Part shown: positions 18,721 through 48,039 of the stretch, one piece after another
How the letters are laid out: each line of letters begins with the position of its first letter
How positions within the stretch are numbered: the first letter of the stretch is position 1
Assembly: GCF_025717555.1 (NCBI RefSeq)
Contig: NZ_JAJIRP010000011.1
Span: 124,001-188,000, forward strand
Reading direction: 5' to 3'
DNA: 64,000 nucleotides
From: Paucibacter sp. B2R-40
Lineage (GTDB): Bacteria; Pseudomonadota; Gammaproteobacteria; Burkholderiales; Burkholderiaceae_C
Notes under the pieces: model-generated
Databases searched by the model: none
What the model saw: only the letters and a program-made list of their open reading frames with translations
What the model was told of the DNA's origin: nothing
Position numbers and translations under genes: made by a program

Positions 18721-21700
18721 TCAAATCGCAGGAACAGAAGCGATATCTCCCAAAATACACCACATTTCCTGTGCTCCGAGGTATTTCACCGGATGAATCA
18801 TGCGAGCTTCAATTGATCCATTCTTCGAGAATATAAAATCAGGCCCGATATGAGACTGATTGCGCAGCAGCGTCCGATGCAGGACTTGCTTATTATCGTA
18901 GGCAGAACCGTCCTCAATGACTCGACTGATAACCATCCAGGCCTTCCAAATCTTCACCGATATTTTTAAACCTCTATATCTCAGGGTTTGATGAACTTGG
19001 TTTTTGCTTGGAGCCCAAATGAGCTCGCCAGAATTGCAATAATCAATGGTCTCCTGCAATATTCTAAATAGATCGGCCGAGGTTCCATTTGGTGGAGAAA
19101 AATCGACTGGAACGTCGACGCGTTTGATTAAATCCAGCACTTCCTCTCGATCAAGTTCGGCCTCGCTTTTTGCAAAGCATGCTGCATGAACATGCAACTG
19201 CCAACGGCCGTCATCATCTTTCATCAGTCCGTACTTGCGCAGCCGGTCGGCAGCGATTTCCATGATGTCATCCAAGTTCGGTCGCCCGTCCTCCAAACTC
19301 AAGCCTCGTAGCCACGCTGGAAGCTCAGCTTCCTGCAAGGGCCTAGACGCATGAATACTCAACTCTCCCGTTGTGTGGGCTGGGCGTAGAGAAAGTTTGA
19401 CCTTCATTTCAGGATGAATGTGGCATTCGGGGTGCGCCGCGTCTTGCTTAAAACCGCATTTTGAGGCGACCTCCGCCAATATATTTGTTGCATGGGTGAT
19501 GATACTTTTCGCCTCTGAAAAACACCTTGCAACTTCAATCCCTTCAACGCAGCCGTGACTGTCAAAAAGCTCGGGCTCGAACGGGGACTGCAAGCGATAG
19601 GACAAGAGAGGCGGTATGCGCCTTATATCACCCACCACTTTTGAGAGGCTCGCACTGTCTTGGGGATCTTTGGAACCCACATGATTCAAAGACCGAAGAT
19701 AGTCATTGATGTTTTGCGAAAGATCTCGAATTTGGAACCATTCCAAACTCTCCCTTAAATGCGGGAAAGTTACTCGTATACCGGCCTCCTCTACACTTAA
19801 ACCCGCTTGCAAATTTCGCTGAGCGCGTGACCCGATGCGATCCACGCGGCCATTCTTCTGCTCGATACCAATTGGGCTGCCGGAAATTCCAAAATGGGTA
19901 ACTCGGTCGCAACAGACATGCAAGTCCTCGCCCTCCTGCAGAACGCTGGTGGTTATGAGGACCATCGGGTATCCCGGCATCCGAAATCGCCGAGCTATTG
20001 AAGTTCGAGAACTGGTGTTTTGGCCGCTTGCCCATTCCACTGGTGCAAACGGGCTCATTTGTTGCTGAAAAGTCAGCCTCCACTTATTCCGCTTGACGCG
20101 ATCGGCCCCCTTAAGAAATTCCGCAAAATTTGTCTTGGCAATCTGAGGCCAAGCCTCGGCCAAACTCCGCAAAATGGATGCGGTTCCGAACACTCTCTCC
20201 GGACGAGCGCATATGGCCACGACTCTTGCAACTAGCGCTTTTGCAGCAGAGTTGCTGTCGTCGTTGGCCGTGCTCCACCAACCCAGATAAAGGTCTATGA
20301 AGGGATGATCAAGCCGGAGCAACGCGAAAAGGAGCTCGCGCTGCAAATCGAGCTCCCTCAGTTGTGAGTTGGCTTTGGCAAGTGCACTGCCATCCTCAGG
20401 CTCGGCTGCATTGTGCAGGCAGGACCACACGGTATCCCATGCCGGCAGTATTTCCTTACCCAACCCTGATTGATACAAGGCCAAGCCAATCGTTGGAGCA
20501 GATAGAAGAACCTCCGCTTGCTCCATGTCGATCAGATCCTCCTCTTGGCGATCAGATGAAATGAGCTCCAGTAAATATTCATGCAAATGCCGGAACGGCA
20601 TACTTTCTAACTGCGGCAGCTTATCCGCCATCAATAATGCCCAGGCGCACTGTAGGCGGCGGTGTCGGCCAAGCTCATTTGCCGCTCCAGCCAGCTTTGA
20701 GGCTGTCTCGGCAAGTTCGAAGAATGGTATTTGCGGCAAATTTGAACAGCGCTCCATGATGAAGTGCCGCCAATCCAGCTCACCGATGATGGCTTCTAGG
20801 CGCCTTGGGTCGCGAAGACGATCACGCAGCAACTTGGGATGGGGCAGCCTATTGACGTCCGCGAACCTTGCGCCCATTGGATCCAATTTACCCCGAAAGA
20901 ACCAACTGAAGAGCGTTTCTGATCCAGCAGGAATTTCGACTTCCTTGTCATCGATCATCACCTCAGGTTCGTCTTCCACCGACGTGGTCGCGCCCGTGGC
21001 CGCAGGTGAAGCAACGAGTGTTTTTCTGGATTGATCTCTTGCATTTGACAACTCAATTGCGGAGCCAGGCATACCCTCTTGGACCAAATACTGAACAAAC
21101 CAGTCGTCGAATTCTTGGTTCAATCGCGAGTAGAGGTCATCAACGCTCTTCAATCGACGCACGAATACGAGTTGTTTATCCCCTTCAGAGAACGCCTCCC
21201 TGCCCAAGCGTTTGGCCTCTACTTCCAGTTTTGGATGAGGCGGCTCTTTTCCAAACACTTCCCTGTAGGAGCCGACTAAGCTTCCAATCAAAGTGCCATC
21301 AATAGCCTGGGCGTCGCTGGCCGGGCCGGAACCGAGCTCGACGTCCAGAGTCGCACCGCTTGGTAGCCCGCGCCCGTCTTCATCGGCAAGTTCTTCCTTC
21401 TCGACCTTAGCGGTCTGCGGCGGAGCGTACGCCTCCCACGACGAAAACATGGCCATCGGGAATTGACCACCATTCTCTCCCTGCAAATGTTCGACCAAGC
21501 GTTTTTGAACCACCGCAGTAAATAAGCGTTGTTGCAGAGTTTCTGGATCGCTTTTGCCTGCCAAACTGATTCCTGCCTCAGCGCGGCGCTCGATACGATA
21601 TTGGTTTCGACTCAGTCTATTGAGACCGACCTTTAGCTCTTGAACCCGCCGGATCATGTATGGCTTTAGGCCTGCCTGGACTTCACTCCAGCCGCCGCCC

Positions 21701-22593
21701 GCTCGCCGTTGCTCAGCTACTTCGCGGATGCGCTCATGAGGTGCCGGACTTACATGGGGCGATGCAAAAAGTTCAAATTGCTTCACCAATTGCATCAAAT
21801 CCCGGTCGAACGGCGTGCCAGAAAGCAATAGGGCGGCCCCAAATTTCCGCGTCCCGCCTTGCTCCCCTACACCCAATGCATTTGCAAGAAAATTCGCGCG
21901 ATCAGAGGCACCCTTGCCAGCGCCGCTTTTGAGCAAGTGTGCTTCATCAACGACCAACAAGTCGTAGTACGGGATAGCAGCATTCACAAGACCGGCAGCG
22001 CGTTCCTTGAACTTCGCCTTTGTTTTTACTCCCCGAAAATCGACCGGCGCCCCAGCCAGCGCGGCCAGCGTTCTGACTCGATTGGCCCAGCCTTCAGTTG
22101 TATCGCCTGTAAGGTGAAAACTAAGCGCTGAAAGGGTAAGGAATACATCTGGGGTCGAAGGCGCGGTCACTGCGTTTGTTACCCAGTCATCAACTCGCAC
22201 ACATGCAAAACTCGCCGCAGGAGGCAATCCGGCTGGTCCCTGAACACGCATGTCTGGCTGTCGTACGTTGCTGCGAATAAATGCGGGTAGCTCCCTTGAA
22301 TGCCATTTGCGCATCACGTTCTGGGACGGAGCCAAGTACAGCACCCGAAAGCCAGGCTGCAGATGGCGAAAAAGTGCAACAACGGCAAGTGCCACATAGG
22401 TCTTTCCCATGCCGACCTCATCTGCCAGATAAGCACAGCCCTGAGAAATTAGCATCCTATGCAAGGCCATGGCCGCCTTCAATTGTTGCTCTCCGATATC
22501 CTCAAAGCCCGGCAGTTTTCCGGACATATCAAGCAAGGCAGAGGCAGCCTCGAATGACCACGGGCGTTGCGATGGAAAGATTTCCGAAGTCAA
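18721..22593 (-). CDS. SNF2-family DNA translocase/helicase (last gene of the minus-strand run)
   Basis: This 1290-aa SF2 ATPase has Walker A DEVGMGKT (58-65), DEAH box at 216-219, LLLSGTPFDRD as motif III, and a C-terminal helicase domain with QKNGRVDRIGSR (about 913-924). A long middle insert (about 400-850) has no recognised domain. I start it at TTG 22593: AAGGA lies six bases upstream and the TTG overlaps the upstream TGA by four bases; the open frame extends to 22737, but those residues overlap the PLD gene. It should act on DNA with the PLD and 415-aa proteins encoded just upstream. Confidence 0.85.
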   Translation of the reverse strand: MTSEIFPSQRPWSFEAASALLDMSGKLPGFEDIGEQQLKAAMALHRMLISQGCAYLADEVGMGKTYVALAVVALFRHLQPGFRVLYLAPSQNVMRKWHSRELPAFIRSNVRQPDMRVQGPAGLPPAASFACVRVDDWVTNAVTAPSTPDVFLTLSALSFHLTGDTTEGWANRVRTLAALAGAPVDFRGVKTKAKFKERAAGLVNAAIPYYDLLVVDEAHLLKSGAGKGASDRANFLANALGVGEQGGTRKFGAALLLSGTPFDRDLMQLVKQFELFASPHVSPAPHERIREVAEQRRAGGGWSEVQAGLKPYMIRRVQELKVGLNRLSRNQYRIERRAEAGISLAGKSDPETLQQRLFTAVVQKRLVEHLQGENGGQFPMAMFSSWEAYAPPQTAKVEKEELADEDGRGLPSGATLDVELGSGPASDAQAIDGTLIGSLVGSYREVFGKEPPHPKLEVEAKRLGREAFSEGDKQLVFVRRLKSVDDLYSRLNQEFDDWFVQYLVQEGMPGSAIELSNARDQSRKTLVASPAATGATTSVEDEPEVMIDDKEVEIPAGSETLFSWFFRGKLDPMGARFADVNRLPHPKLLRDRLRDPRRLEAIIGELDWRHFIMERCSNLPQIPFFELAETASKLAGAANELGRHRRLQCAWALLMADKLPQLESMPFRHLHEYLLELISSDRQEEDLIDMEQAEVLLSAPTIGLALYQSGLGKEILPAWDTVWSCLHNAAEPEDGSALAKANSQLRELDLQRELLFALLRLDHPFIDLYLGWWSTANDDSNSAAKALVARVVAICARPERVFGTASILRSLAEAWPQIAKTNFAEFLKGADRVKRNKWRLTFQQQMSPFAPVEWASGQNTSSRTSIARRFRMPGYPMVLITTSVLQEGEDLHVCCDRVTHFGISGSPIGIEQKNGRVDRIGSRAQRNLQAGLSVEEAGIRVTFPHLRESLEWFQIRDLSQNINDYLRSLNHVGSKDPQDSASLSKVVGDIRRIPPLLSYRLQSPFEPELFDSHGCVEGIEVARCFSEAKSIITHATNILAEVASKCGFKQDAAHPECHIHPEMKVKLSLRPAHTTGELSIHASRPLQEAELPAWLRGLSLEDGRPNLDDIMEIAADRLRKYGLMKDDDGRWQLHVHAACFAKSEAELDREEVLDLIKRVDVPVDFSPPNGTSADLFRILQETIDYCNSGELIWAPSKNQVHQTLRYRGLKISVKIWKAWMVISRVIEDGSAYDNKQVLHRTLLRNQSHIGPDFIFSKNGSIEARMIHPVKYLGAQEMWCILGDIASVPAI

Positions 22594-24620
22594 TTCGAAT
22601 CCTTTGTATTGACGAAATGGCGAGCCACTCCACTCTCCTGCCCCGGCGCGCACAGAAACATGCGCTCGGCCCATTCCAACCAAACCGGCTCCAAAGTTGA
22701 GAGCGGCTTCTGCAAGAGCAGCCCATTCAAAAGGCACTTGGCCCGGAGGGACAATTTCTTGGCGGAGAGAATTTCGCGGTGATCAGAACAAATTTGAATC
22801 ACCCACAGCAGCATTGCCCAAGCTGCGACCGGTTCCACAACATTTCCGTCCTCAGCTTGCTCAATACGGTCCACCAAACACCGCAAGGAATCAGGTCTGG
22901 GTGCTGAAAAATAGTATTCACAACGAACGGAATTGAGGCGAAGTTGCTCTTCCTTTAATCTCACTCGAAGCAGATAGAAGCTTCCATGGACCGCAGCCAT
23001 TTCTTCAAAAATATCCAATTCCAATGAGCCTGCCGGAGGTGTTTCTCCTGAGGCTCCCCGCCGCAAGAGCAGAACTTCCAATTGCTCATAGTCTCCCGGA
23101 CAGGAGCCCGTGCCACCAGCCGCAAGGCTTCGCCACATCTCAAGGATGCGCCAGACGTCCGGTCTCAAATCCTCAGGCGGAGGCCGGTGGTCAAGGGCGC
23201 ACTGTTGAACCCACACGATCGAAAGACCAACACCGTCAACTTCGACCTTGATCCATGGATTGCTCTGTAGATCCCTGTATAGCGATTCACTGGTCTTCAA
23301 CTTGAAACTGTGAGGCAGCATGGTCGCTCGCCCGAATTTCTTGCCCTGCGCATCAATCAGGCGAACTTCTGTCTCGGCATATCGCCGGCGGTCTTTGCTG
23401 GTGACGAAATCGATCCCAAGCTCCAAGGTGTGCCAATTGAATATGGCAAAAATATTGGGCCCTGTTTCCACCACATCGGCATGAGTGGCAGGCTCAAGTG
23501 GTTTAAGAAATCGTATGGGCTGGCGGCTCAGGTCGGTGAGCCATGCGTCCCCCTTATCGGGAAACAAGAAACCCGCCTCAAAATTGAGCTTGAAAGCCTT
23601 GTTGCTGAAATTCACCGAGCCCATAAAGCAGAATTGGCCCGGAATTCGAATCACTTTGGCGTGAAAGAACCGTGGCGTTTCCTCTTTTCTTCTACTTCCC
23701 GCGAGGTCTGCGTCGCCAAACTCACACCAGCGGAGGTTGGCAGCATCTCTGAGTGCGCAATAGGCGTCTTCTTCTATCTGTGCTGCTCCGCCCGCCGCCT
23801 GCCATGGATCCTCAGGCAGCCAAAGGTCAAGCGCCTTTGCACCCGTCGTATTCAGCAACAGTTGAACCAATTCAGCATGCCCAGCGTCAGCAAAGTAAGG
23901 TGAGAACACCTCCACTCGGACTCCATCACTTTGCTTAACCTTGTGCTTCATGATTTCGTCAAACCATTTGATGAAGCTAGGTTTTCCAGGGACAAATACC
24001 TGAAACAAGGGCTCATCAGAACGACGCCGCAGAGCAGAGCTATCACTCAGCTCCTTGCGGAACATGGCAGCCACACTGTTTCGAGCACCACTTCCGGTCA
24101 AAAATGAGAGCAAACCGACCAAGCCGGGAACGACGCCCGCAGGCGGTTTGGCTGGATCGAAAGCAGGCGCAAAATACCAGCACTCAATGTTCTCCCACCA
24201 GCCTGCTTTGGTCAGATTGGCTGAGCCAGCGCCTAACACCCAGCGCACCAATCCTTTGCCGTTCTCGAGGCGGAGCAACATGACCTTGCCATGAAATTCA
24301 TGCTGCAAACGCATGGGCAACATTTCATAGGCCAGCATTGGGCAGCCTGCCACGACTACTCGGGCATCGAAGTACACCGCGACATTGATAGGGGAATCGC
24401 GCAACAGCGACTCCATTTGCAAATGGCGAACAGCAGAATGCAAGGACAGTCCATCGCCACCATCCGGCTGCAGCAATGGAAGGATTGCCGTCTCAAAAAA
24501 CTCGGGCTCAAAGGCATATGTGGTGAAGAGAGCATCGGTTACTCGATACCCATCCAACTCTTCAATGGCACTGCGCAGGGCATCCTTCAGCATGCCCCAT
24601 TGGCTGGTAGTCTCGCTCAA
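22590..24620 (-). CDS. Phospholipase D-fold protein, likely nuclease
   Basis: This 676-aa protein has two HxK-type half-sites: HGK at 110-112 with GSANLT at 132-137, and HAK at 320-322 with GSVNFS at 334-339. This spacing matches the PLD superfamily in its Tdp1/BfiI/DrmC-type branch, in which two His-Lys motifs form one phosphodiesterase site. The remaining ~330 residues are of unknown fold. The protein is much larger than the small DrmC proteins of DISARM. ATGA overlaps join it to the 415-aa gene upstream and TTGA to the SNF2 gene downstream, so the three probably form one complex. Confidence 0.82.
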   Translation of the reverse strand: MSETTSQWGMLKDALRSAIEELDGYRVTDALFTTYAFEPEFFETAILPLLQPDGGDGLSLHSAVRHLQMESLLRDSPINVAVYFDARVVVAGCPMLAYEMLPMRLQHEFHGKVMLLRLENGKGLVRWVLGAGSANLTKAGWWENIECWYFAPAFDPAKPPAGVVPGLVGLLSFLTGSGARNSVAAMFRKELSDSSALRRRSDEPLFQVFVPGKPSFIKWFDEIMKHKVKQSDGVRVEVFSPYFADAGHAELVQLLLNTTGAKALDLWLPEDPWQAAGGAAQIEEDAYCALRDAANLRWCEFGDADLAGSRRKEETPRFFHAKVIRIPGQFCFMGSVNFSNKAFKLNFEAGFLFPDKGDAWLTDLSRQPIRFLKPLEPATHADVVETGPNIFAIFNWHTLELGIDFVTSKDRRRYAETEVRLIDAQGKKFGRATMLPHSFKLKTSESLYRDLQSNPWIKVEVDGVGLSIVWVQQCALDHRPPPEDLRPDVWRILEMWRSLAAGGTGSCPGDYEQLEVLLLRRGASGETPPAGSLELDIFEEMAAVHGSFYLLRVRLKEEQLRLNSVRCEYYFSAPRPDSLRCLVDRIEQAEDGNVVEPVAAWAMLLWVIQICSDHREILSAKKLSLRAKCLLNGLLLQKPLSTLEPVWLEWAERMFLCAPGQESGVARHFVNTKDSN

Positions 24621-25864
24621 ACGATGCCCTTCTTTTTGAAGTCGACTTGATTCAGGATTGCCAAAAATGAGCCGAGAAAAAAATCGTTACTGTGTGAATT
24701 CATCCAATTTTGAAAATTCAAACTCGATAACTCGCTGGCTGTTGGCAGCGTACCGGGGGTCATATTCAGCACCACTTTGATGAGCCCGCCCTCCCAATAG
24801 CACCACGGCACACCTCCACGCTGCTTGGAAACTTCGGCGTGATGATTGAGAAGGAGATCAATCGCTAGCCGCCAGTTCTTCGCCTTCATCGCGTCACAGA
24901 AGTCTCTCAACCCACCGGCTCTCTTTTGCCATTGGCCATCAAAACCGGCACCAGGGAAGTCCGGCAGGCTCGGATCCCTGAATGGCCATTCCGACAAGCC
25001 GGCCAGTTGAGAAGTAAGTTCTGTTGCATTGCGGCCATGTGAACCCAACAACCAGGCGAAGGTCAATGCCGCCAGAGACAGAGACTCATCAAAATCTCTC
25101 ACGCAACCCGCAAATTCCTTCAATGGCACCGAGTGGGCCGTCAGCCATGCCAAGAACTCTCTTGGTGGCGGCACGGCAGTCCTGCCTTGCAAGAAGGACT
25201 TGGCCTGGGCGAACACCTCGCCTTGCCAAGCCACGGCAGTGACTCCGCCAGACAAAAGACAGTTGGCGAGTTTTTCGCGTCCACCCTCAACCTGCAAAAT
25301 TCCGAGCACCCATTTACCAACCCCTTCCAATTGCGCTAAGTCGAGCTGCACGCACTTCTTGTCTAGCGCCAGTCGCCATTCGGAGCCAGAGGTCTTACTC
25401 AGAAATAGCTTGGTAATTTCCACTCCAACGGGCGTTAGTCGACGGCTCTCGTCTGTCAACCCTGATGACCTCAGCGCTGTGGAGTAGAGGCCCCAAAGTC
25501 CGGCCTGGCGTTGGTTGTCGAGGATGCGCGCTTCTTTGGCACCGCCAAGGAACACCGGGAATCCAGAGCTTCGCTTGATACGGCGAGAACCGATAACTTC
25601 CGGCAAATCTAGCCGCAATCGCGCTCGAGATGTCATCTGCTCAAAGCGCTCGAAGCACTCCCAATCGGGAGCCTCCTGAGCTTCATTGCCGCAAAGGTAA
25701 AAGCCAATCAACGTCAAGATGAAATTGTCCAAGTGACTGGTCACGGTAGTCAGATTGCCCACCATTTTTCGACCAACGCTTGACCACAATAGCTCTATGC
25801 CCAGGGGGTCACGACTACCACGTGGGCGCAAACTGTCGTCGAGAGAAGTGAAGAAAAAGCTCAT
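24617..25864 (-). CDS. Unknown protein of the PLD/SNF2 module (415 aa)
   Basis: I recognise no family. The sequence is soluble, helix-rich and Leu/Trp-rich; a segment around residues 110-145 (LGLYSTALRSSGL-like then LTPVG) looks like a winged helix. The ATG at 25864 gives a start that fits the likely domain edge, though no good ribosome binding site precedes it; an in-frame TTG at 25945 is the alternative. It overlaps the PLD gene by four bases (ATGA at 24617-24620). I infer that it is the first member of a three-protein PLD/SNF2 unit, perhaps a DNA-recognition or adaptor subunit. Confidence 0.65.
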   Translation of the reverse strand: MSFFFTSLDDSLRPRGSRDPLGIELLWSSVGRKMVGNLTTVTSHLDNFILTLIGFYLCGNEAQEAPDWECFERFEQMTSRARLRLDLPEVIGSRRIKRSSGFPVFLGGAKEARILDNQRQAGLWGLYSTALRSSGLTDESRRLTPVGVEITKLFLSKTSGSEWRLALDKKCVQLDLAQLEGVGKWVLGILQVEGGREKLANCLLSGGVTAVAWQGEVFAQAKSFLQGRTAVPPPREFLAWLTAHSVPLKEFAGCVRDFDESLSLAALTFAWLLGSHGRNATELTSQLAGLSEWPFRDPSLPDFPGAGFDGQWQKRAGGLRDFCDAMKAKNWRLAIDLLLNHHAEVSKQRGGVPWCYWEGGLIKVVLNMTPGTLPTASELSSLNFQNWMNSHSNDFFLGSFLAILNQVDFKKKGIV

Positions 25865-26030
25865 CGGGAGGAATGTGAGGCAACTCACACGGTCTGAGGA
25901 AAATGACAATGACAACGGAAGGAATCTGTTCCGCAACAGGTACAAAATGAATCACACCCTCTAGGCAAGAGTTAGATTCAGAAAAGCGATCCAGTCGTGG
26001 ATTCATACATGGCGAACCATAACTTCATAT

Positions 26031-26231
26031 TCACGCGCCACCGCGACGCGCTCTCTTGCCGTTTTCAACTTTTGGCTCTGGCAAACGGCACCAACCTAAT
26101 TCCGCCTCGATCTTGGCCCAGGCGGCGGTGATGACGCTGCGCTCAGCTCGCACGCGAACGCCTTCTCGCAAGTCAGACAACGGGTACAACTGGCCACTTT
26201 CTTCTTGGTAAAAAAACACGCTCGTAAACAT
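26031..26231 (-). pseudogene. Short coding-like fragment (66 codons)
   Basis: The frame from ATG 26231 has coding-like codon choice and gives a compact, basic-ended peptide (ending KRARRGGA), but there is no ribosome binding site and no family match. It lies between the defence genes and a nuclease gene remnant, so it is probably the 3' end of a deleted gene. It could also be a genuine small gene. Confidence 0.35.
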
Positions 26232-37698: not shown

Positions 37699-40600
37699 GC
37701 TTGCACCTCGGTTTGATTGAATACCTTGGCAGACTCAAAAAACGCCCAGGCCTGCCGGTAGTCGGACTCGCGGTTGGCGCGGGCGAAAGGGGCGGTGAAA
37801 CTGCGCTCGACGGTGCGCGGGCCGCCGGGCCAGGTGTCGTCGATCAGCGTCATCGTGATGACGGTGCCGTCGGGGACTTTGGAGGTGCCGCAGCTCTCAT
37901 TGGCAGAGGCGCCTGCAGCGGCCGGATAGGTCCAGAGATCGACCCAGCCGAAGCGGCCTTCGCGGCGGGTGCCGTCGGGCAAGGTTATGCGCACTGTTGG
38001 CGTCTTGGCGCCTCCCTTGCGCGGCAGGCCGACGCCCGAAATGCCAACATTCCGAGTGAAAATGATGCGTCCCTTGATGTCGTACCAAGTGTCCCGCTCG
38101 TTTTGCTGCATGACCGGAAACTGCACTCGGTAGATCAGCAGCAACTCTTCGAGCGTCAGGCCCAGCGCGTGGGCGACAAGTACGTCGATCTCGACCAGCG
38201 CCATTTGGCGCGCGTAGTCGCTGCGCAGAGCGCAATGTCGCGTCCAGTCGCTGGTGAGGTCTTGCCAGAAGTCTTGAGGCAGACGCGGGTTATCGGGCTG
38301 ACTCCAACTTTGGTCACAGAAGGCGATCTCGTACAGCTGTTCCCACAGCGGGGCATAGTGGGAAGTGAGGCAGTTGAGCGCGATATAGCGGCTGCTTACA
38401 GAAGACACAGCAGGAAGCAAAGGCAACTTGTCCACCAAATCACCACGCAAATCACCTTTCCCCGTGCTCTTTATTAAAAAATCAAATGGGACTGACGCCA
38501 AGCTACTTGCGAAAGCAATCAACTGCTCCGGGCTCTCAAAAGTAATGGAAAAGCCACCATCAATGTGAGCAGCACCAGGAGGTATCAACGCTCCTGTGGC
38601 CGATCGCTCGTTATTGACGTTAACTCGTCGACGACTGATATATCTAAAATAATCTATTACCCGTCCTGCCTGAGTCTCTCCTCTTTCAACCCAGCTCACC
38701 CTTGGGGTTCGATTGCTGTATTCAGCACGGTCTTGCATGGGTCGAAAGTTGGTACGTGGTAGGTAATCGCTAGGGATAGTTTCAAGGTCGATTGAGTCGT
38801 ATGCCAGTGGTGTATTGCAATTTTTTCGGGGCGTTTTGTAAAAGGGGTTGGCCACAAAGAAATGCGGGCCGGACAGCACCCAGTCGGTCGGCGTGGTGGG
38901 GAAGTCGGCGTCAGTGCTGGCGCGGCGGGTCAACGTGCCGTCTCGCTGCGAGTAGGTCTCGTCAAACATCACCGTCGAGCAGTAAGCATTGCCCAAATCC
39001 GCCAGCCGGGTCGGGTACGCCGCCAACTTGGCCAGCACATTTTTCATGGCCCCAGCGTGCAGGGCGGGCAGACGGGCACGGCGGGCTGGCGTGCCAGGCT
39101 CGTCGTAGAGCTGGGCAAAGGTCGCCAATGCGGCTTCGTCCAAGCGCACGATGCGGTCGCAGTGGCCAGCGGTGTTCCATTGCCCACTGTCATCTTTGAT
39201 GCCATCAAGCAAATTTGAACCGTCATGTAAATAACAAGCATCCACCGTAGCAGGTACAAACAAATTCGAAATATTGTCAAAAGATGGATTGATCTCTTGC
39301 CCACCGTAGATGTTGATGGAGTACCGAATCCAAATCAGCACCTCTTGAAATAGCGACTTGACGTTCAGAAATTGAAAATGCCGCCGCAGTCGCGAATACA
39401 TCGCCTCGCGCAAGTCCCCGCCCTTAGGGTCGTCATATGGTCCCTCCGGGTGCAGCAGCGCGGTCACGCCGCGCTCACTGGACATGCCCCAGGCCAGCGG
39501 CATGAAGCATTTGTACAGATTTGTTTGCGATCCTTTCAGCAGCGGGTAGTTCTGCACTGCATTCAAGAAATTCTGCGTGCCTTCGGCCTCCTGCAGCTCG
39601 GCCGTCCAGGCCTCTCGCAAACCAGGAAACTGAGCGAAGGCCTCGGCGCGCTTGCGCCCAAGCTCCGTTGCACTGAATTTGCGGATTGCAAACAGCGGGT
39701 TGAACTCACCGAGGATGCCGGACTCGTTCCACTCGACCTTCAACCAAGGCGGGTTGCCCAGCAGCAGATCGAAGCCGCCCTTGCTGGCAAAGACATCGGC
39801 AAACGCCAGCTCCCAATGCATGAAGCGGCGCTCGGCGGTCACCGCCTCGACCAGGCGCACGCGCGGGAAATGCTCGCGCAGGCGACTGATGCGCAATTGA
39901 CCCAGGCGGTCATGCAAATTGGGCGGCTGGCCGGCGGCGGAGGTTAGGCCCGGTTGCACGGCGCCGAACATATCGCCCTGCGGCGCCGGCATGATCTCGA
40001 CCGGCTCGGTCAGCCCATCCCAGTCCAGCTCGCCCTGCGGCTGCGGCTCCAGATCAACGACATTGCCTTCCAGAATGGCGCCCACTTCCATCCACCATTG
40101 CTCGCGGCTGGGTAAGTCGGCACTGCCGGTGATGGGCCAGAACCACAGCGCGCACCAATAGTCCATCACCAGTTTGAGGCGGCGGTAAGCGGTAGCGTGG
40201 TCGCCGTCGTCGTTCAGCAAGCCGCACTTGCGGGTGGCGTCTTTTTCGCTGCGGCTCAAGGCGCGGTGGGCTGCGGCGATGGTGGCGCTGCCCGCAGCGT
40301 CGGCATAGGGCCAGATGCTCAGGTCGTCTTCGGTGGCGGCACGGTCACGGGCCAGCGCCGCCGCATGCTCGGCCCAGAGCTTGTCGATGCAGGCGCTGAG
40401 CTGCTGCAGGCGGGCAATGTCGGTAGCGTCGAGCGGACGGATGAACTGCTTGCGCCAGGTTTTCAGGCGGGCAAAGTCCTCCGGGTACAGCTGCTTGGCG
40501 ACCTTGTCGCTGTAGTCGGCCATGCCGGGGTCGGGCAGCAGGAAGTGATAAATACTGGCTTCGGGCCGGGCCTCGGCCTTGATATTGATCGCCCGCGGAG

Positions 40601-42935
40601 CCTGCTCATGCCAAAAGGGCTTGTTGCGGGTGGTGAGCAGATGCGGCGCATAGACCTGGCGACGCGCGCCGATCAGGCTGTTGCCATTGAACAGCTGATA
40701 GCCGAACCAGGGCACGCGGGCGGCTTTGGGCGGCAAGGGCTGGCCGTCTTTGTCGGTCGTTGGTTCACCGTAGATTGCGTTCAGCCACAGCGAGACCTCG
40801 GCCAACTCAACGGCGATGGGGTTCAAGTCAACGCCGTAGACATTGCGGTCGGCGATGTACATACGGACTTTTTGCAACTCCTGCGGATAGTCCTCATGCG
40901 GCACGCGCTGGCCGGTTTCGGCCTGCTTGCGCTCCAGGTAGGCTTCGGAGAGCTGGTTGACGGCCTCGTTGATAAAGGCCGCGCTGCCCATCGCAGGTTC
41001 GCAGACGGTCAGCGTCAGGATTTGGTCGGCCGTCTTGCCTTGCAGCAACTCTTTGAGCGCGTACTTGACCAGGCAACGGGTCAGCACCTGCGGGGTGTAA
41101 TAGCTGGCGCTCTTTTGGCGGTCGCGGCCGGCGAGTCGGTAAATGAACTTGCCGCGCGGGTATTGGCGCAGGCGGCGGTGGCCGGCGTCATCGACCTCAT
41201 GCACGCGCTCTTGCGGCAGGTAGTCGGCGAGGCGGCTGGCGGGCACGAACCAGGCGCTGTCGAGCATGTCGGTGCCAGCGCCGCCGGCCTTGCCGGCAGC
41301 GGCGTCGTCGCTGCCGACGTCGTCTGCGTCGCCGTCTTCATCATCTTCGTCACCGGCAGCTGCCTTGGCCTTGCCGGCGGCGGGCTGGACCTCGAACAGG
41401 TCTTCGGCGGCAAAGAAGCCACGGTAGCTGAGCAAGGCCTCATACACGGCGCCAAGCTGGTTGATCGACAGCAACTGGTAGCTGACCCGGCCCTTGCGAC
41501 GGTTTTTGCCGGTGCCGCCGCGCGATTCGCTCATCAGGCGGATGACGCTTTGCCAGACATGGTTGGGGAAGCGCACCTTGGCCAATAGAGGCGTGGCGCT
41601 GTCGTCAAACAGGCGGCTGTCCAAGGGCGAGAGCACGAACACATCTTTGGAGCCTGTGACGGCGCTGAGTGCCTGCTGGCCATCTGCCGCACCGAGGCCA
41701 CAGCCTTGCGCGACCAAACTGAACAAGCGCCGCAAGCTGGCGTCAAAGTAAAAGCCCTCGCGGGCATGCGGGGTGTTGAGCGGCTGGCGCTCGAGGTCGC
41801 GCAGCGCCTCCAGGCTGTAGCCCTTCAGATAGACCTCGCTCTTGGCGATGGGCACATAGCCCAGCTCGGGGCGTGCCTCGATGTAGAACATGAAGAGCAG
41901 GCGGTAGACTAGGCGCAGGCATTCGAGGCTGAGATCGCCGGCGTCGAGCTGGTCTTTGCCGGTGAAGAAGCCCTTCTTCGCCTCAATGGCCTGGGCGCGC
42001 AGTTGGCGGGCGGCCTCGTCGCCGAGCAGCTCGATCGCTCCGCGCAGGGCGTATTTGAGGTCTTCGCTGACGCCAAAGGCATGCTTGTGGGCGTTTTCGT
42101 CCAGCGCTTCGAGCAGGCTGGCGCCACTGCCCGGAGCCAGGCAGTCGCGGTGCAAGAGCGCTGCGGCGGCTTGCAGCGTGGCGCCATCCTTGCGGTCAAG
42201 AATTTCGGCCCAGTCGAAGCGCAGGGCGCGGTTATTGGGCCATTTGTAGCGATCCAGCAGCAACCATTCATTGCAGCCGGCCAGAATCACATAACGCGGT
42301 GGCGCATCGGCACCGAAGATGGCGTCGCCCACCAGGCCGGCCCAGGTCTCTTTGGCCAAGTCGGGCGGGACCGGCAGGCCGTTGTAATGCAGCGAGGTGA
42401 GGCCGTGGTCGAGTAGCTCTTCGTCCTCGGCAAAGGGCTGGTAGGCGGGCACGATGGCGAGCTGCAGCGGCAGGCCGGCCGAGGCGGCGAGGCTGGCCTG
42501 GGCGTTCACACCACCGGCGGCAATCAACTGCCAGACGGGAATGGGCGAGCCGGGCACCAGTTCGCACAAGGAGACCAGGCCGGTGCCCTGCGCGGATTGG
42601 GGCACTGCGTAACCCAAGGCTTGCAGCAAGCAGGACTGCGCCTCGCTGAAGAGCGCCCATTTTTCTTTAGCATCACGACTGCGACCAAGCTGGCCACGCA
42701 GGCCGAACCATCGCTGCGCGCAAGCCGCCAACGCCCGAGGTGGGGCGCGCCGGGAGGTGTCGGCCTGGGGCTCGATGCCATCGGCCGCCGGAGGGGCTTC
42801 GGCAGCGGCGGCATCCCAGGCCTCAAGGCGCGACTTGATGTCACCCTTGAATACCTCGGCCAAGTAATGGTGGCTGTAAAACTCGTTTTCGTTGGTGATG
42901 CCAACAAAGGTCTGGACGGCGTCAAGCACGGACAT
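37695..42935 (-). CDS. Giant Eco57I-type N6-adenine DNA methyltransferase
   Basis: This 1746-aa protein has SAM-binding motif I in VCEPAMGSAAF (near 647), a preceding SASYYTPQVL helix, and the catalytic GNPPW motif (near 1060) typical of N6-adenine methyltransferases in PglX/DrmMI/Eco57I-type enzymes. The ~600 residues in front form a large domain of mixed fold; the region after the catalytic motif should hold the target-recognition domain. Parts of that region are clearly AT-richer than the rest of the gene. It is far longer than ordinary Dam-type enzymes. Its neighbours point to host-DNA marking for the adjacent helicase system. Confidence 0.85.
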   Translation of the reverse strand: MSVLDAVQTFVGITNENEFYSHHYLAEVFKGDIKSRLEAWDAAAAEAPPAADGIEPQADTSRRAPPRALAACAQRWFGLRGQLGRSRDAKEKWALFSEAQSCLLQALGYAVPQSAQGTGLVSLCELVPGSPIPVWQLIAAGGVNAQASLAASAGLPLQLAIVPAYQPFAEDEELLDHGLTSLHYNGLPVPPDLAKETWAGLVGDAIFGADAPPRYVILAGCNEWLLLDRYKWPNNRALRFDWAEILDRKDGATLQAAAALLHRDCLAPGSGASLLEALDENAHKHAFGVSEDLKYALRGAIELLGDEAARQLRAQAIEAKKGFFTGKDQLDAGDLSLECLRLVYRLLFMFYIEARPELGYVPIAKSEVYLKGYSLEALRDLERQPLNTPHAREGFYFDASLRRLFSLVAQGCGLGAADGQQALSAVTGSKDVFVLSPLDSRLFDDSATPLLAKVRFPNHVWQSVIRLMSESRGGTGKNRRKGRVSYQLLSINQLGAVYEALLSYRGFFAAEDLFEVQPAAGKAKAAAGDEDDEDGDADDVGSDDAAAGKAGGAGTDMLDSAWFVPASRLADYLPQERVHEVDDAGHRRLRQYPRGKFIYRLAGRDRQKSASYYTPQVLTRCLVKYALKELLQGKTADQILTLTVCEPAMGSAAFINEAVNQLSEAYLERKQAETGQRVPHEDYPQELQKVRMYIADRNVYGVDLNPIAVELAEVSLWLNAIYGEPTTDKDGQPLPPKAARVPWFGYQLFNGNSLIGARRQVYAPHLLTTRNKPFWHEQAPRAINIKAEARPEASIYHFLLPDPGMADYSDKVAKQLYPEDFARLKTWRKQFIRPLDATDIARLQQLSACIDKLWAEHAAALARDRAATEDDLSIWPYADAAGSATIAAAHRALSRSEKDATRKCGLLNDDGDHATAYRRLKLVMDYWCALWFWPITGSADLPSREQWWMEVGAILEGNVVDLEPQPQGELDWDGLTEPVEIMPAPQGDMFGAVQPGLTSAAGQPPNLHDRLGQLRISRLREHFPRVRLVEAVTAERRFMHWELAFADVFASKGGFDLLLGNPPWLKVEWNESGILGEFNPLFAIRKFSATELGRKRAEAFAQFPGLREAWTAELQEAEGTQNFLNAVQNYPLLKGSQTNLYKCFMPLAWGMSSERGVTALLHPEGPYDDPKGGDLREAMYSRLRRHFQFLNVKSLFQEVLIWIRYSINIYGGQEINPSFDNISNLFVPATVDACYLHDGSNLLDGIKDDSGQWNTAGHCDRIVRLDEAALATFAQLYDEPGTPARRARLPALHAGAMKNVLAKLAAYPTRLADLGNAYCSTVMFDETYSQRDGTLTRRASTDADFPTTPTDWVLSGPHFFVANPFYKTPRKNCNTPLAYDSIDLETIPSDYLPRTNFRPMQDRAEYSNRTPRVSWVERGETQAGRVIDYFRYISRRRVNVNNERSATGALIPPGAAHIDGGFSITFESPEQLIAFASSLASVPFDFLIKSTGKGDLRGDLVDKLPLLPAVSSVSSRYIALNCLTSHYAPLWEQLYEIAFCDQSWSQPDNPRLPQDFWQDLTSDWTRHCALRSDYARQMALVEIDVLVAHALGLTLEELLLIYRVQFPVMQQNERDTWYDIKGRIIFTRNVGISGVGLPRKGGAKTPTVRITLPDGTRREGRFGWVDLWTYPAAAGASANESCGTSKVPDGTVITMTLIDDTWPGGPRTVERSFTAPFARANRESDYRQAWAFFESAKVFNQTEVQA

Positions 42936-42980: not shown

Positions 42981-45900
42981 TCAACCCTTGACCGAGGCAA
43001 AGCCTTCGGTCGACGTTGACTCGGCAGTGGCGGCAGCCGGGTGGCACAGCGCCGCGACGACCTGAATCCAGGCCTGCGGCTCAGTGGTTAGGGTGTCTTG
43101 CACCCATTGGCGGTAGTCGTCGAAGACGCGGTGAATCTGCTGGGTACGCCGCTCGAAACGGCCGCGTTTGACCGTCTCCAACTGATTCTCGAGCTTCAGC
43201 TCCAGTTGATTGATCTGGCGGCCCTGCAAGCGTTCCAGGTCGGCCAAGGTCCCCTCCAAGCGCTGCGCCAAACCCGTGGCGAAGACAGCCTGCTTGGCCT
43301 GCATGAAGGCGGACATGGCCGCAACGGCCTGCGGCAAACCGGCTTGCAGCTCGGCCAAAGGCGGCGCTTGACTGCTGCTGCGGTTGGGCAGCGAGGCGGC
43401 GCGCAGACCGGTGCGCAGAGCGAAGCCATCGAAGGACTCCAGACTGAACGCAGCGCCGGCGTCCGGGCGGCAGGCCACTTGCCATTCGACCAACAGGGGC
43501 TGACCTTTGCGATTGGGCACCAAGCTCATCAGGACGAAGGCCTGAGTGCCGGGCGGCAACTGCGCCACTTGCAAAACCGGCGCGCGGTGCCGGCCAAAGG
43601 TGGTGAGCACACGGTCAGCGAGCCATTCCATGATGGGGTGCTGCGGCCAGAGATAGTGCAGCGTCGGCCAGGTGTCGTCTTCCGCGCGGGCTTGGCGCGC
43701 CGTTTCCATCGCCTCCATCATGCGCGCGGGGCTGGCGCAGAGGGTGTAGTGGTCGGCCTTGGCCTGCGCCTCGCTGGGCAGCTGGCGCAAGCGATCCTTC
43801 AGATCGAGCGGCGCGGTGATGGCGATGGTCGACTCGGCGTCATTGCCCTGCCAGCTGGCGAAGACGCCGTTGCCTTCAAGTTGCTGCTGCGCGGAGAGCA
43901 GGGTCAAGGCCGTCTTAGCCCATTGGTAGTCACTCGCGAACAACGAATGGCCGGGTGCAATGGCCTCCAAGCTGCTGGCCGGCTCCCGCAGGTATTTGGC
44001 GGACGGCTCGGCAATGTGGTCGGCAGAATCAGCTGCTGGCGCCGAGCCATCGATCACGTCAAGGCTCAGGTCGGCAGCGGCTCCATGATTGGCGCCAAAC
44101 AGATCCATCAGCCAATCGCCCTCATTCTCATCGGCGGCGGCCAGGGTAGCGTCGAGTTTGGCCTCAACTTGCTCAGGCGCCATGCCATCGACCATGAAGC
44201 CGGCGACCTTGTCGGCCTCCTTGCCGGGGTCATAGACATTCAGGAAGGCTGACGGATCCCCCAGGTTTTTGTAGGCCTGGTCGTCTTTGTTCTGCAAGAT
44301 TTCGAGAATGCGCAGGTCGCCGCGGATCCCCTCCACCGCTGACTCGGTAAACAGGTAGACGATCTGCGGTGGCTTCTTCTGACCATAGCGATCAACCCGG
44401 CCATTGCGCTGTTGGAAGACCATCAGGGACCAGGGCAGGTCGAAGTGGACCAGTCGATGGCAGAAGTAGTGCAGATTCAGGCCTTCGGATGCGACGTCCG
44501 AGCAAAGCAGGATGCGCAAGGGATTGTCCAAGCGACCGAAGGCCTCGACCAGGTCTTGCTGTTCCTTGTCGGTCATCTGGCCATGCAGCACCTCGATTTG
44601 CTTAGGCTTGAGCTTCAAATCGACGGTCAGCTGGGCATGCAACCAACGCAGCGTTTCGATGCGCTCAGAGAACACCACCAGCCGGTCGGCCGCGGCATCG
44701 GGCTGCCAGGCAAAGCCGGGCGAACGCAGTTCAGCCAGGAAGCGCTGGTATTTTGAAAAAGTGCCGGGCGTGATGGCGCGCAGCGCCAGGGCCAGTTCTG
44801 TCAGGCCCTCGATTTCAACCCGTTCATCGGGTGTGACATCGGGCTTGGCACGCAGCAAAGCGATGCGTTTGTCGGTCGACTCAGCAGCAGCGGCTGGGCT
44901 GGAGAACAGACCTTTTTGCATGCCCACGCGCTGCAATTGCTGGGCCTTGCCGGCATTGTGTTTGCCACTTTGCGTGAAACGAACATCCAGCAAGGCGCGG
45001 TAAGCGGCCTCCTCTGCGGGCGTGGCGGCTTGACGCAAGCAATGGGTGCTGCGCTCCTGAAACTCGGCGCTGACCTGGTCGCGAATGTCCTTCTTGAAGC
45101 GCCGCACGACCAGACCTTTGTGGCGAAAGTCTTCGGGCGTGTAGTCATCGGGATCGGAAATGGCTGTCGGATCGAGCAGGCTCATCAGGGAAGCAAAGCT
45201 GCGCGCCGAACCGTCGTGCGGCGTGGCCGAAAGCAAGATCATCGTGTCTGACCGGGTGGCCAGCAGCCGGGCCAAGCGAGCTCGCCGCGAGACCCCCTGC
45301 TCGCCGGCACGCGCGGCGACGTTATGGCATTCGTCGATGACGATGATGTCCCACCAGGCGTTCTCGAGGTAATTGCGGTACTCGAGATTGCTCTTGAGGG
45401 TGTCAATCGAAATGATGCTGCGGTCGAAATGGTTGAAGGGGTTGTGATTGGCCGGGATGCGATTACGCACCCGCGCCAGGCCAACGGAGTCAAGCCGCAC
45501 CAGCGGAATCGAGAACCGGCACCACCACTCCTTCTGGAACTGGGTCAGCATGCTCTTTTGGGTGACCACCAGGATGCGCTTACCGCGACCACGCTGCATC
45601 AACTCGGTAGCAAGGATGCCGGCCTCAAGCGTTTTACCCAGGCCCACCGAATCCGCGATCAGGATGCGCGCACGCGGCTGCTTGAGCGCCTGCAAGGCAG
45701 GGTCGAGCTGGTAGGGCACCAAATTCATCGCCCCCCGGTGACCCAACTGGATACTGGCGTCGTTGGCCACGCTGCGCCGGCGCTGGCTTTCAATTGCAAG
45801 CAAGGCGGCCGAGTATTGCGGGCTGGTGTCAGCGACCAGCACGGTCGTGGCCGGGTCCAGCACCTCGATGGGCCCTTCCAGCTCGGTCAGGAACAGCGCG

Positions 45901-46034
45901 GACTGGTTGCGGACCAATTCGGAAATGCCGTCGCATGTCAGCAGATGGCCACCATCGGAAGAAGGGTCGACACGGCGAACAAGCCATTCTTCGTCGCGAA
46001 TGACGACACGGGATCCAGGAGCGGGGGTTTGCAT
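42981..46034 (-). CDS. DrmD-like SNF2 helicase
   Basis: This 1017-aa SF2 ATPase begins with a small beta-barrel (residues about 5-75, PGSRVVIRDEEWLV). It then has Walker A ADSVGLGKT (near 126), DECH box (near 236), LLSATPHDGS, and a helicase C domain with QQRNGRVDRYGQKK (near 545). A long C-terminal helical part follows. This is the layout of DISARM DrmD proteins, also found in other helicase-methyltransferase systems. I start at ATG 46034; a TTG four codons upstream is open. It lies 45 bp before the methyltransferase gene, as drmD precedes drmMI in class 1 DISARM. Confidence 0.85.
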   Translation of the reverse strand: MQTPAPGSRVVIRDEEWLVRRVDPSSDGGHLLTCDGISELVRNQSALFLTELEGPIEVLDPATTVLVADTSPQYSAALLAIESQRRRSVANDASIQLGHRGAMNLVPYQLDPALQALKQPRARILIADSVGLGKTLEAGILATELMQRGRGKRILVVTQKSMLTQFQKEWWCRFSIPLVRLDSVGLARVRNRIPANHNPFNHFDRSIISIDTLKSNLEYRNYLENAWWDIIVIDECHNVAARAGEQGVSRRARLARLLATRSDTMILLSATPHDGSARSFASLMSLLDPTAISDPDDYTPEDFRHKGLVVRRFKKDIRDQVSAEFQERSTHCLRQAATPAEEAAYRALLDVRFTQSGKHNAGKAQQLQRVGMQKGLFSSPAAAAESTDKRIALLRAKPDVTPDERVEIEGLTELALALRAITPGTFSKYQRFLAELRSPGFAWQPDAAADRLVVFSERIETLRWLHAQLTVDLKLKPKQIEVLHGQMTDKEQQDLVEAFGRLDNPLRILLCSDVASEGLNLHYFCHRLVHFDLPWSLMVFQQRNGRVDRYGQKKPPQIVYLFTESAVEGIRGDLRILEILQNKDDQAYKNLGDPSAFLNVYDPGKEADKVAGFMVDGMAPEQVEAKLDATLAAADENEGDWLMDLFGANHGAAADLSLDVIDGSAPAADSADHIAEPSAKYLREPASSLEAIAPGHSLFASDYQWAKTALTLLSAQQQLEGNGVFASWQGNDAESTIAITAPLDLKDRLRQLPSEAQAKADHYTLCASPARMMEAMETARQARAEDDTWPTLHYLWPQHPIMEWLADRVLTTFGRHRAPVLQVAQLPPGTQAFVLMSLVPNRKGQPLLVEWQVACRPDAGAAFSLESFDGFALRTGLRAASLPNRSSSQAPPLAELQAGLPQAVAAMSAFMQAKQAVFATGLAQRLEGTLADLERLQGRQINQLELKLENQLETVKRGRFERRTQQIHRVFDDYRQWVQDTLTTEPQAWIQVVAALCHPAAATAESTSTEGFASVKG

Positions 46035-46386
46035 GGGGCTGTTCAACGGTGGATTTCAGGCGGGCAAAAAATAGGTTGTAGGCATCGGCTAAGACTTTGG
46101 GTTGATATCCCCAATCAAGCTTTAGACCCGATATGTCGCCTCAAGCCGGCGCCGAGCAGGCGCTGATTGATGCTGTCGAAGCGTGTCATTGCCCGGCCTA
46201 TGCGAATGGCGCGCAGTATTCATGTTCAAGTAGGTTCTACGTCTTTGTCTGGGTTGGTAAAAGCCTTGCTTGCACCTTGCTATCGGCCACCATCTGAATG
46301 AAAAGTGATCTGCAGTGGCGCTGGGCGTAATTGGAGACGGGTCGTTTCATTTGGTGGTTGGAGTTTGGGTTCTTTGGCGACTGAAT
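46035..46386. other. 352-bp gap between NERD-UvrD and DrmD-like genes
   Basis: No convincing gene is present. The gap interrupts the tight minus-strand gene run and should hold a promoter for the DrmD-like gene onward. I see no clean operator palindrome or terminator. Confidence 0.4.
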
Positions 46387-48039
46387 TTAAACGGCAACTA
46401 GCTCAAAGCGTGCGCTAGTCAAAGAAATTTCTCTGACTAGCGCCGCTTCCGCAAATTCGGACAGAACCAGCTCTAAATGCATAGAGGCGCGAGTCAAGCC
46501 GACAAACAACAGGTTTCGCTGAGCGGAGCCGAGTTCATCAAACTGAACCTCGGTGAGCACCACAGCTTGGGCCGACTGACCTTTGAAGCGGCGCAGCGTC
46601 TCGATTCGCAGCAGGCCCTCGGTCCAGTTCGGTCGGCCTTGTTCGTCGTAGCTACCGTCAAAGTGGCTCAAGGACCATGGACCCAACTTGGCTTCACCCA
46701 TTAGTTGAGATTTCTCTCTGCCACGCCAGCACAGAACAGCGATGTCAGGCAAGGCAAAGCCTTTATCTATACAGCGTTGAATTGCAAAGATGGTGGCCCG
46801 CTCCAAGCCCTCTTCTTCGGGGCGGTAGCTATGCAGGCCAGGTTGTTCGCCCTCAAAGGGGCTGCAGGCCTGAATTAGCTCTGGCGTCAGCCGTAGCATA
46901 TTGATCGTGCCAACCAGTCGGCGAGGACTGCGGTAATTCTCATTCGAACGAACCACCACTGCGTCAGGAAATTCAAGCTCCTCTCGATCTGGATAGAGGC
47001 TTTGCGAAGGATCGTCCAACAAGTAGACGCGCGCATCAACACGAAGCCGTGAAATCAGAGCCTGCACCCAATCGGCCTGCATATCCTGCAGTTCATCCAA
47101 CACCAGTAGGTCGAGGTCCGGAGCAACTTTTTCGCTCATCTCCAAGTAGCGTTGCCCGAGCGCTTCGTAATCCTGTTTCGGCCCAACGGGCCGACCAGCG
47201 GCCTCCCAGCAAAGTTGATGAAATGTGTGCACCTTAGCGGCCTGGGGCGCTATGTCGCGAACATGGTCGGCCAAGGGCCGGTTGAAGCACACGTAGGCGG
47301 CCTGCTTGTCGGCCAAGCTCGCGTCGCGCAGCAAGCGCAGGGCAAGTTGCGTCTTGCCAGAGCCCGCGGTTGCACGAACGCGAATCACGCCCGATGGCGC
47401 TTCAATACGCGGCACCCAATCAGCAAGGCCGCCAGAAATTTTGGTGACCCGCGCTTGCAGGCTTCCGGCCAGGGCGGACACATCGGGCTCCAGCGCCAGC
47501 CTGTTTTCAAAGAAAGCGCATACGCGCTCCCTCAGCGGGTCGGCGAGGCCGGCGCCCAATGTGCGCTGAACATAGCCCGGCAGGTCCACACAGTCCGAGG
47601 CGTCGGCTATGCGCTCACGTGGAAAGGCAATGCTGCTGTGCTCCCCGGCCGTCATATCGGGCAGTACAAGGAAATGCATCAGCCTTGCGCCCAAACCGGC
47701 CGAACGCAATCGGTGCATCACGGCATCGAACTGCGTCGCGACTTGCCGCGCCACATCTTTGTTCTCCACCCCGTAGCGTTTAAAGACGCCCTGCTCGGTC
47801 AGACTGACGGCCCCGGCCTTGACTTCGAGTAGCGCGACATCGCCGGCGCTATTGACGACGACGATGTCGAGTTCGCCATGTTTGTCATGATTGGGGTGAA
47901 CAGTGGCCCAGTCGACGCTGTGAAAGAGCTCATAGGCGGACGGAAGACCATCGGCAAGCGACTTCAAAATCGCAAGCTCGGCATAGTCTCCAGCCGTAAT
48001 AGGCCGGATGGTCGACAGCGGGGGGTGAACTCTGGCCAC
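46387..48039 (-). CDS. NERD-domain UvrD-type helicase
   Basis: This 550-aa protein starts at GTG 48039, giving the MARVHP start that NERD proteins often have. Residues about 20-130 form a NERD nuclease-related domain, with GELDIVVV and LLEVKAG as the PD-(D/E)XK-like core. Walker A AGSGKT sits near 222, LDELQDMQ near 311 and VGLTRA near 515. It is a short SF1 helicase without the large inserts of UvrD proper. As the first gene of the minus-strand run it may act with the helicase-methyltransferase system, but a 352-bp gap separates them. Confidence 0.82.
   Translation of the reverse strand: MARVHPPLSTIRPITAGDYAELAILKSLADGLPSAYELFHSVDWATVHPNHDKHGELDIVVVNSAGDVALLEVKAGAVSLTEQGVFKRYGVENKDVARQVATQFDAVMHRLRSAGLGARLMHFLVLPDMTAGEHSSIAFPRERIADASDCVDLPGYVQRTLGAGLADPLRERVCAFFENRLALEPDVSALAGSLQARVTKISGGLADWVPRIEAPSGVIRVRATAGSGKTQLALRLLRDASLADKQAAYVCFNRPLADHVRDIAPQAAKVHTFHQLCWEAAGRPVGPKQDYEALGQRYLEMSEKVAPDLDLLVLDELQDMQADWVQALISRLRVDARVYLLDDPSQSLYPDREELEFPDAVVVRSNENYRSPRRLVGTINMLRLTPELIQACSPFEGEQPGLHSYRPEEEGLERATIFAIQRCIDKGFALPDIAVLCWRGREKSQLMGEAKLGPWSLSHFDGSYDEQGRPNWTEGLLRIETLRRFKGQSAQAVVLTEVQFDELGSAQRNLLFVGLTRASMHLELVLSEFAEAALVREISLTSARFELVAV

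Follow-up and report, generated by a model that had tools for sequence, protein, structure and literature searches.

A probable ARMADA Type II operon carrying two guest genes between armB and armC, followed by a PDC-M27-like module, in Paucibacter sp. B2R-40

Class 1 DISARM systems have the gene order drmD-drmMI-drmA-drmB-drmC. A gene run recalling this order was found at positions 18721-48039 of a 64,000-nucleotide stretch of Paucibacter sp. B2R-40 (NZ_JAJIRP010000011.1, positions 124,001-188,000), which we call the window. Another system made of a similar set of proteins is ARMADA Type II which, as described in passages of a preprint (Bell et al. 2025, PMC12458937), comprises ArmA (BrxHII/RapA-like), ArmB (a PglX-like methyltransferase), ArmC (a YprA helicase with a C-terminal Vsr-type nuclease, a BrxA-like insert and zinc modules) and ArmD (a RelE-UvrD protein). 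According to the same passages, phage protection requires all four arm genes, and copies are present in E. coli NCTC 12900 and ATCC 8739. Our analysis indicated, with a probability of about 0.88, that this gene run represents an ARMADA Type II operon with a two-gene guest between armB and armC, followed by a separate PDC-M27-like module of three genes.

The open reading frames (ORFs) were called by a longest-ORF script instead of a gene finder, and their products were annotated with Pfam, PADLOC and NCBIfam profiles, a PDB sequence search and, for selected domains, fold comparison. Between 48039 and 18721 the minus strand had ten ORFs that were intact and one gene still recognisable as a remnant, in agreement with the one-directional run of eleven genes and remnants listed by a first-pass annotation of this DNA. 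The nine ORFs from 46034 downwards formed a single co-directional run, in the order SNF2, methyltransferase, ASCH, NOV_C, DUF1998/MZB helicase, UvrD, unknown, PLD and SNF2. Four of the junctions were stop/start overlaps of 4 nucleotides, namely armB/g4 and armC/armD (both ATGA) and g8/g9 and g9/g10 (both TTGA), as had also been pointed out earlier.

The four core genes followed the published order of BrxHII-like helicase, PglX-like methyltransferase, YprA helicase and UvrD protein, with two guests between the second and the third. The armA gene (42981-46034, with its ATG at 46034 in an ORF spanning 42981-46046) encodes an SNF2/RapA translocase of the BrxHII/DrmD-like type of about 1017 amino acids, and armB (37695-42935) a PglX-like, IIG-type adenine methyltransferase of 1746 amino acids (PADLOC REase_MTase_IIG, 1.8e-241). 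A single-chain YprA-family helicase of 2171 amino acids, bearing MZB/DUF1998 and C-terminal nuclease-like domains, is encoded by armC (28947-35462), and armD (26731-28950) encodes an RelE-like N-terminal domain fused to a UvrD/GajB-like SF1 helicase, of 739 amino acids from its ATG. Four enterobacterial islands (E. coli and Klebsiella) were fetched as references, one of which (L062) provided the E. coli proteins and residues. Blastp identities to the E. coli proteins were 46% for ArmA, 45% for ArmB, 37% for ArmC and 40% for ArmD, all nearly full length, the ArmC alignment covering 2194 columns, an extent compatible with the BrxA-like insert, the zinc modules and a place in the ARMADA II branch of the YprA tree.

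Passages of the preprint also name the residues that were mutated: K136 and D236 of ArmA, G605 and N971 of ArmB, K110 and D234 of ArmC, and K266 and D454 of ArmD (PMC12458937). The printed numbers agreed with the stated residues in the L062 proteins in 8/8 cases, and all eight residues were conserved in the window proteins, as K138/D238 of the 1021-residue armA ORF, G650/N1061 of armB (the latter corresponding to the NPPW motif), K110/D237 of armC, and the equivalents of K266 and D454 in armD. When the N-terminal part of ArmD was modelled with AlphaFold (30 rows, pLDDT 82.4), its fold matched RelE/YafQ toxins, giving the RelE-like domain expected of ArmD, which the PDB sequence search did not detect. 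The model of the ArmC C-terminus (32 rows, pLDDT 86.8) had two restriction-nuclease-like regions, the first of them with D, D, H and D as invariant residues. The fold matches were middling and not decisive, none of 154 Foldseek matches reached an E-value of 0.001, and no Pfam match was found for this region. The genes armA, armB, armC and armD recurred in this order across a set of 57 loci described below. The core is therefore an already described system, ARMADA Type II, and not a new composite; since it was validated in E. coli, no new class is needed.

The first-pass annotation had recognised a DISARM-like order with a Druantia-like helicase and extra genes, and had proposed a composite of both systems or a new subtype of either. 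The first part of this description was confirmed, whereas the combination proved to be that of ARMADA Type II, and we consider a composite or new subtype very improbable. Several profile matches would favour it: ArmA matched DrmD (PADLOC, 3.8e-103) and one DrmA-labelled model (2.6e-75), ArmB matched DrmMI (1.2e-44) and ArmC matched the Druantia model DruE3 (4.1e-93). However, the NCBIfam DrmD score of ArmA (359 bits) was below the cut-off of 610, and the separate drmA and drmB genes and the drmC PLD gene of class 1 DISARM were absent from the run, which has instead one 2171-residue helicase with MZB and a PDC-M27B-like PLD gene. Neither did we find the druH-druE succession of Druantia III, because none of the ten window proteins matched E. 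coli DruH (L062) at 1e-5, and armC scored 1277 bits against ArmC and 106 against DruE. Besides, all four core proteins aligned nearly end to end with ARMADA Type II, and the DruE encoded in the L062 island matched ArmC in the helicase parts only. The gene set given in passages of PMC12458937, together with the residue comparison, led us to reject a DISARM/Druantia hybrid, which would stand only if ARMADA were itself reclassified under DISARM or Druantia. PADLOC-DB v2 labels ARMADA genes as DrmD, DruE and a type IIG enzyme, so that annotations based on it call for caution. At least four genes had been regarded as extra; extra genes do exist, but the UvrD gene is not among them, being the fourth core gene, armD. 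The earlier proposal was to fall if profile searches placed every gene in one described system, or if the blocks proved to be unrelated neighbours in homologous loci; this came true in part, the core genes being so placed and the last three genes having relatives in L089 that stand apart from ARMADA genes.

Two guests occupy the junction between armB and armC. The first one, g4 (36664-37698, minus strand), overlaps the armB stop by 4 nucleotides and encodes a protein of 344 amino acids with a hydrophobic N-terminus and a C-terminal ASCH/PUA domain, which was weak in Pfam and clear against PDB entry 2dp9 (TTHA0113, 2.5e-12). The second one, g5 (35582-36511, minus strand), encodes a NOV_C/DUF3883 protein of 309 amino acids (Pfam NOV_C, 8.8e-12; PADLOC PDC-S36, 9.5e-16) with D...ExK-like residues and no meaningful PDB sequence match. 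By tblastn at 1e-5, the ASCH protein had no match in the 57 ARMADA loci, and the NOV_C protein had one, in L017, where it was the sole guest. Among 399 genomes of the same order, the ASCH guest was found in four including its own, one match having an internal stop. None of the other slots that were examined contained such a pair of an ASCH/PUA and a PD-(D/E)xK-like NOV_C protein.

Scanning with ArmB retrieved 57 loci from many phyla, on stretches reaching at most 10 kb to either side of armB. Within the sequence read, armB and armC ran in the same direction in 38 of them, and 18 had no armC beside armB. One locus with genes on opposite strands (L029/L071) was set aside from the slot counts. 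Both armB and armC were available in 39 loci, 35 from the scan and the four enterobacterial references, and a gap longer than 300 bp was taken as an insert. Such inserts were present at the armB-armC junction in 22/39 loci, at armA-armB in 8/50 and at armC-armD in 0/26, counts that include the four references, all closed. Three of three further loci, read along the contig, were also occupied between armB and armC, and without the references this junction was occupied in 25/38 loci. In a separate search of the 399 genomes of the order, armB was found at 1e-60 in the window's own genome and in four others, which had inserts at armB-armC in 4/4 cases and at armA-armB and armC-armD in 0/4 each. 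With the references left out, nominal Fisher P values were 1.9e-7 for the comparison with armC-armD (25/38 vs 0/22) and 6.9e-6 for that with armA-armB (25/38 vs 8/46).

The ArmB tree had 43 rows, 29 occupied and 14 closed (G1101, whose armB reads as pieces, was excluded), and implied at least 8 changes of occupancy; near relatives differed in the state of the slot, as L009, which carries Zorya II, and L012, which is closed. Of the ORFs of at least 150 amino acids in the first slot-count set, 53 were co-directional and 2 opposite. These results suggest that the armB-armC junction is a guest slot across species, armC-armD never being occupied, and this seems to be new: no published description of such a slot in ARMADA was found, as far as the literature was searched.

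Several observations weigh against a general slot. Occupancy was clustered on the ArmB tree, so the loci are not independent, and the Fisher P values overstate the case because the loci are related by descent. The slot is not universal either, since it was closed in all six cyanobacterial loci of the tree and nearly always in E. coli. ARMADA was located there by DNA similarity (armB match in 515/5426 genomes), and one place covered at least 80% of the 2-kb armB/armC junction in 495 of the 518 genomes with a match, a survey in which the joining rule of the tool could conceal inserts of less than about 1.5 kb (the twelve spans listed measured 1.6-2.0 kb). Moreover, no convincing gene was present in the slots of L016 (363 bp) and G1136 (ORFs of 189 and 230 amino acids only), nor in the armA-armB insert of L034 (301 bp), and the matches of some guests covered shared domains only, namely those of the G942 HNH protein to Cas9 models and those in G1101, L007, L019 and L034.

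The occupied slots numbered 30 (the window, 25 and 4), 24 of which were examined individually or by BLAST comparison, those outside the individual scan being L016, L023, L027, L032, L048 and L049. In 20 of the 24, a guest matched a PADLOC model at 1e-5 or another guest having such a match, some at the domain level only; no match was obtained for the one protein tried per slot in L015, G1136, L033 and L037. A pooled family scan took 89 of 101 ORFs of at least 130 amino acids from slots, armA-armB gaps and stretches after armB, and its counts differ from the slot counts since it includes members from unresolved or armA-armB places. The Zorya II gene set ZorA2-ZorB2-ZorE lay between armB and armC in two loci (L009:18004-21477 and L025:20981-24459), with identities of 34-56%. 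Mokosh MkoA and MkoB were present in L005, with an MkoA relative, 86% identical, in L014, and an SIR2/ThsA-like guest in L008 had a relative in L018. Other guests were PsyrT (L058), PDC-M07A/HEC-01A-like (L011), AbiLi/AriA-like (L050), PDC-S05 (L040), PDC-M38A/AbiLi (L024), a protein kinase (G1141), HNH and HipA proteins (G942), a Schlafen-type protein (G1101) and a UvrD-type helicase (L034), and part-length matches were obtained to HEC-06 (L007) and mREase_IV (L019). The place between armB and armC thus often holds a defence gene or system, which provides a simple discovery rule, and the guests that remained unmatched (for example L015:7025-7747, L037:14999-16096 and the ASCH protein of the window) are candidate new defence genes. 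With Zorya II inside ARMADA, L009 and L025 recall a Zorya-Druantia-ARMADA array that has been reported from E. coli, and they provide a natural setting in which to ask whether systems co-operate.

Three of the loci had further particularities. In L071 (a Longimicrobiales record, G065), armC-armD lay on the opposite strand to armA-armB with a DruE-like protein of 1427 amino acids adjoining, forming a rearranged ARMADA island. A stop-free antisense ORF of 2246 amino acids ran across armC in L068 (12590-19330), long open frames of this kind being possible artefacts of composition. In L038 armB was truncated and directly followed by a Mu-type transposase (12648-14243), through which guest entry, or else decay, may come about.

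Downstream of armD, after a gap of 785 bp (25946-26730), three minus-strand genes matched PDC-M27A, B and C in order, the A and B matches covering short N-terminal stretches. These were g8 (24617-25945; 442 amino acids; PDC-M27A, 1.3e-9), which is the unknown gene previously given as 415 amino acids, presumably from another start codon; g9 (22590-24620; 676 amino acids; Pfam PLDc_2, 1.7e-11; PDC-M27B, 2.9e-14), with two HxK...GSxN motifs; and the SNF2 helicase g10 (18721-22593; 1290 amino acids; PDC-M27C, 5.5e-69). Their relatives stood in the same order in L089 (G501, of the same class), with blastp values of 5e-8 for gene A (across 60 residues), 5e-7 for gene B and 2e-25 for gene C, and the other seven window proteins had no match at 0.01 within the 19.5 kb read there. 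The PLD protein had been described as far larger than DrmC. Its reading as an enlarged DrmC was discarded because the DrmC match is confined to the part with the PLD motif (roughly residues 280-356), whereas those of PDC-M27B and ZacB start close to the N-terminus; the protein is rather gene B of the separate module. No relative of g8 besides itself was found in 369 genomes of the class, and g9 matched nothing in plasmids or among PDB sequences; in a set of 59 genomes, just 3 besides its own gave PLD matches, all of them short and weak.

Alternatively, all nine genes, from armA through to the final SNF2 gene, could form a single integrated system, with PLD and SNF2 proteins serving ARMADA as additional effectors. 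All of them lie on the same strand, PLD and SNF2 relatives occur within the ARMADA operon of L009 (at armA-armB) and an SNF2 relative within that of L032 (at armB-armC), which makes the trio a possible recurrent partner, and a g10 relative was found in one of 28 further ARMADA genomes. On the other hand, 27/28 lacked a g10 relative at 1e-8, the 785-bp gap with its decayed gene parts the trio from armD, and the A-B-C relatives of L089 stand without ARMADA genes; for the rarity of g10 relatives and the L089 copy, the trio was rejected as a regular part of ARMADA, and a single integrated system seems improbable. As, in addition, the PDC-M27B profile matched only 10/398 genomes of the phylum, the 8 besides the window's genome and G501 by short matches only, the most plausible reading of the trio is that of a neighbour which belongs, as a divergent member, to a candidate family. 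The decayed gene in the gap (26094-26397, minus strand) matched the armB-armC guest of L015 (240 amino acids) in two frames by blastx (7.6e-21), and a decayed relative of a guest beside armD suggests that guests have turned over here too.

By orthology with the E. coli system, ArmB would methylate adenines, possibly marking self DNA, and ArmA (the SNF2 translocase) and ArmC (the YprA helicase with its nuclease-like C-terminus) would act on unmarked phage DNA, perhaps degrading it, with ArmD (the RelE-like domain and UvrD helicase) also being required; defence would be direct and not abortive. The operon probably consists of two gene pairs, armA-armB and armC-armD, whose open junction takes in defence genes of the same orientation. 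The least certain step is the mechanism of the guests: it is doubtful, though conceivable, that the ASCH/PUA and NOV_C proteins act jointly as a small modified-DNA-dependent nuclease, which would then cover phages whose modified DNA escapes the methylation-based core. On a broader scale, the chances seem even that the ARMADA Type II operon serves as a chassis of two parts with a dedicated slot, which unrelated defence genes or systems repeatedly enter and leave, becoming co-transcribed and widening the phage range. Rather unlikely, in our opinion, but deserving serious attention, is that ARMADA gains nothing from the inserts, which would be passengers at a recombination-prone junction of a defence island, as might be expected from guests that are very diverse and mostly singletons, from the transposase after armB in L038 and from the decayed guest relative in the window. 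The orientation of the slot ORFs (53/55 co-directional), the PADLOC matches, some at domain level, in 20 of the 24 slots examined and the preference for armB-armC over armC-armD argue against this passenger reading.

Other genes surrounded the locus. A NERD nuclease-SF1 helicase fusion (46387-48039, minus strand; Pfam NERD, 1.5e-4; UvrD_C_2, 4.5e-10) lies upstream of armA and is a neighbour outside the core; tblastn at 1e-5 found nothing matching it in the 57 ARMADA loci (flanks up to 10 kb). Heading toward the end of the run on the plus strand (12838-18650), a PD-(D/E)xK protein of 881 amino acids and a UvrD-PD-(D/E)xK fusion of 1056 amino acids overlap by 4 nucleotides, a pair that we take to be reminiscent of AddB/AddA; it adjoins an ORF (11881-12735) that matches the RelA/SpoT profile over its initial 120 positions (1e-12). 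On the other side there was an Avs3 system (54129-61041) with Avs3a (PADLOC E = 0, full length) and Avs3b (NCBIfam 253 bits, cut-off 200), adjoined by a tyrosine recombinase-like ORF (51409-52749), as well as a Ser/Thr kinase-like ORF (61924-62988, plus strand), whose MAD6-like match (4e-26) was below the family cut-off.

Payne et al. 2024 reportedly put forward 'guilt-by-embedding', as papers citing that work have it. Compared with the systems known so far, the guest slot resembles the nesting of one defence system within another, described as defence genes embedded in other systems in passages of PMC12255303, PMC10855318 and PMC12988326. The carriers named in those passages are Hma systems and a type I restriction-modification system, ARMADA being unmentioned in them; embedding of defence genes is thus already known, and the armB-armC slot of ARMADA is apparently undescribed within the literature searched. 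The trio shares with PDC-M27, a PADLOC-DB candidate, and with Zac, a PADLOC label, the genes A, B (PLD) and C (SNF2) in the order of g8-g10, whereas g9 is only 23% identical to gene B of L089 and the C protein has 1290 amino acids in the window and 887 in L089.

Class 1 DISARM has in common with the window an SNF2 helicase followed by a PglX-like methyltransferase and a YprA-family helicase. In contrast, helicase and DUF1998 are fused in one protein in the window, the core has no DrmC-type PLD protein, and ArmD is present. Druantia DruE is likewise a single-chain YprA helicase of about 2100 amino acids, but armC and the DruE of L062 were similar in the helicase core only (34% identity over 215 and 21% over 735 columns), and the methyltransferase, SNF2 and UvrD-RelE partners of the window are not Druantia III genes. 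With ARMADA Type II of E. coli, the window shares the four genes, their order, the catalytic residues, the RelE-UvrD fusion and the long C-terminal extension of ArmC. It differs in having a PDC-M27-like module after armD and in carrying two guests at the place where armB and armC overlap by 1 nucleotide in the four enterobacterial copies.

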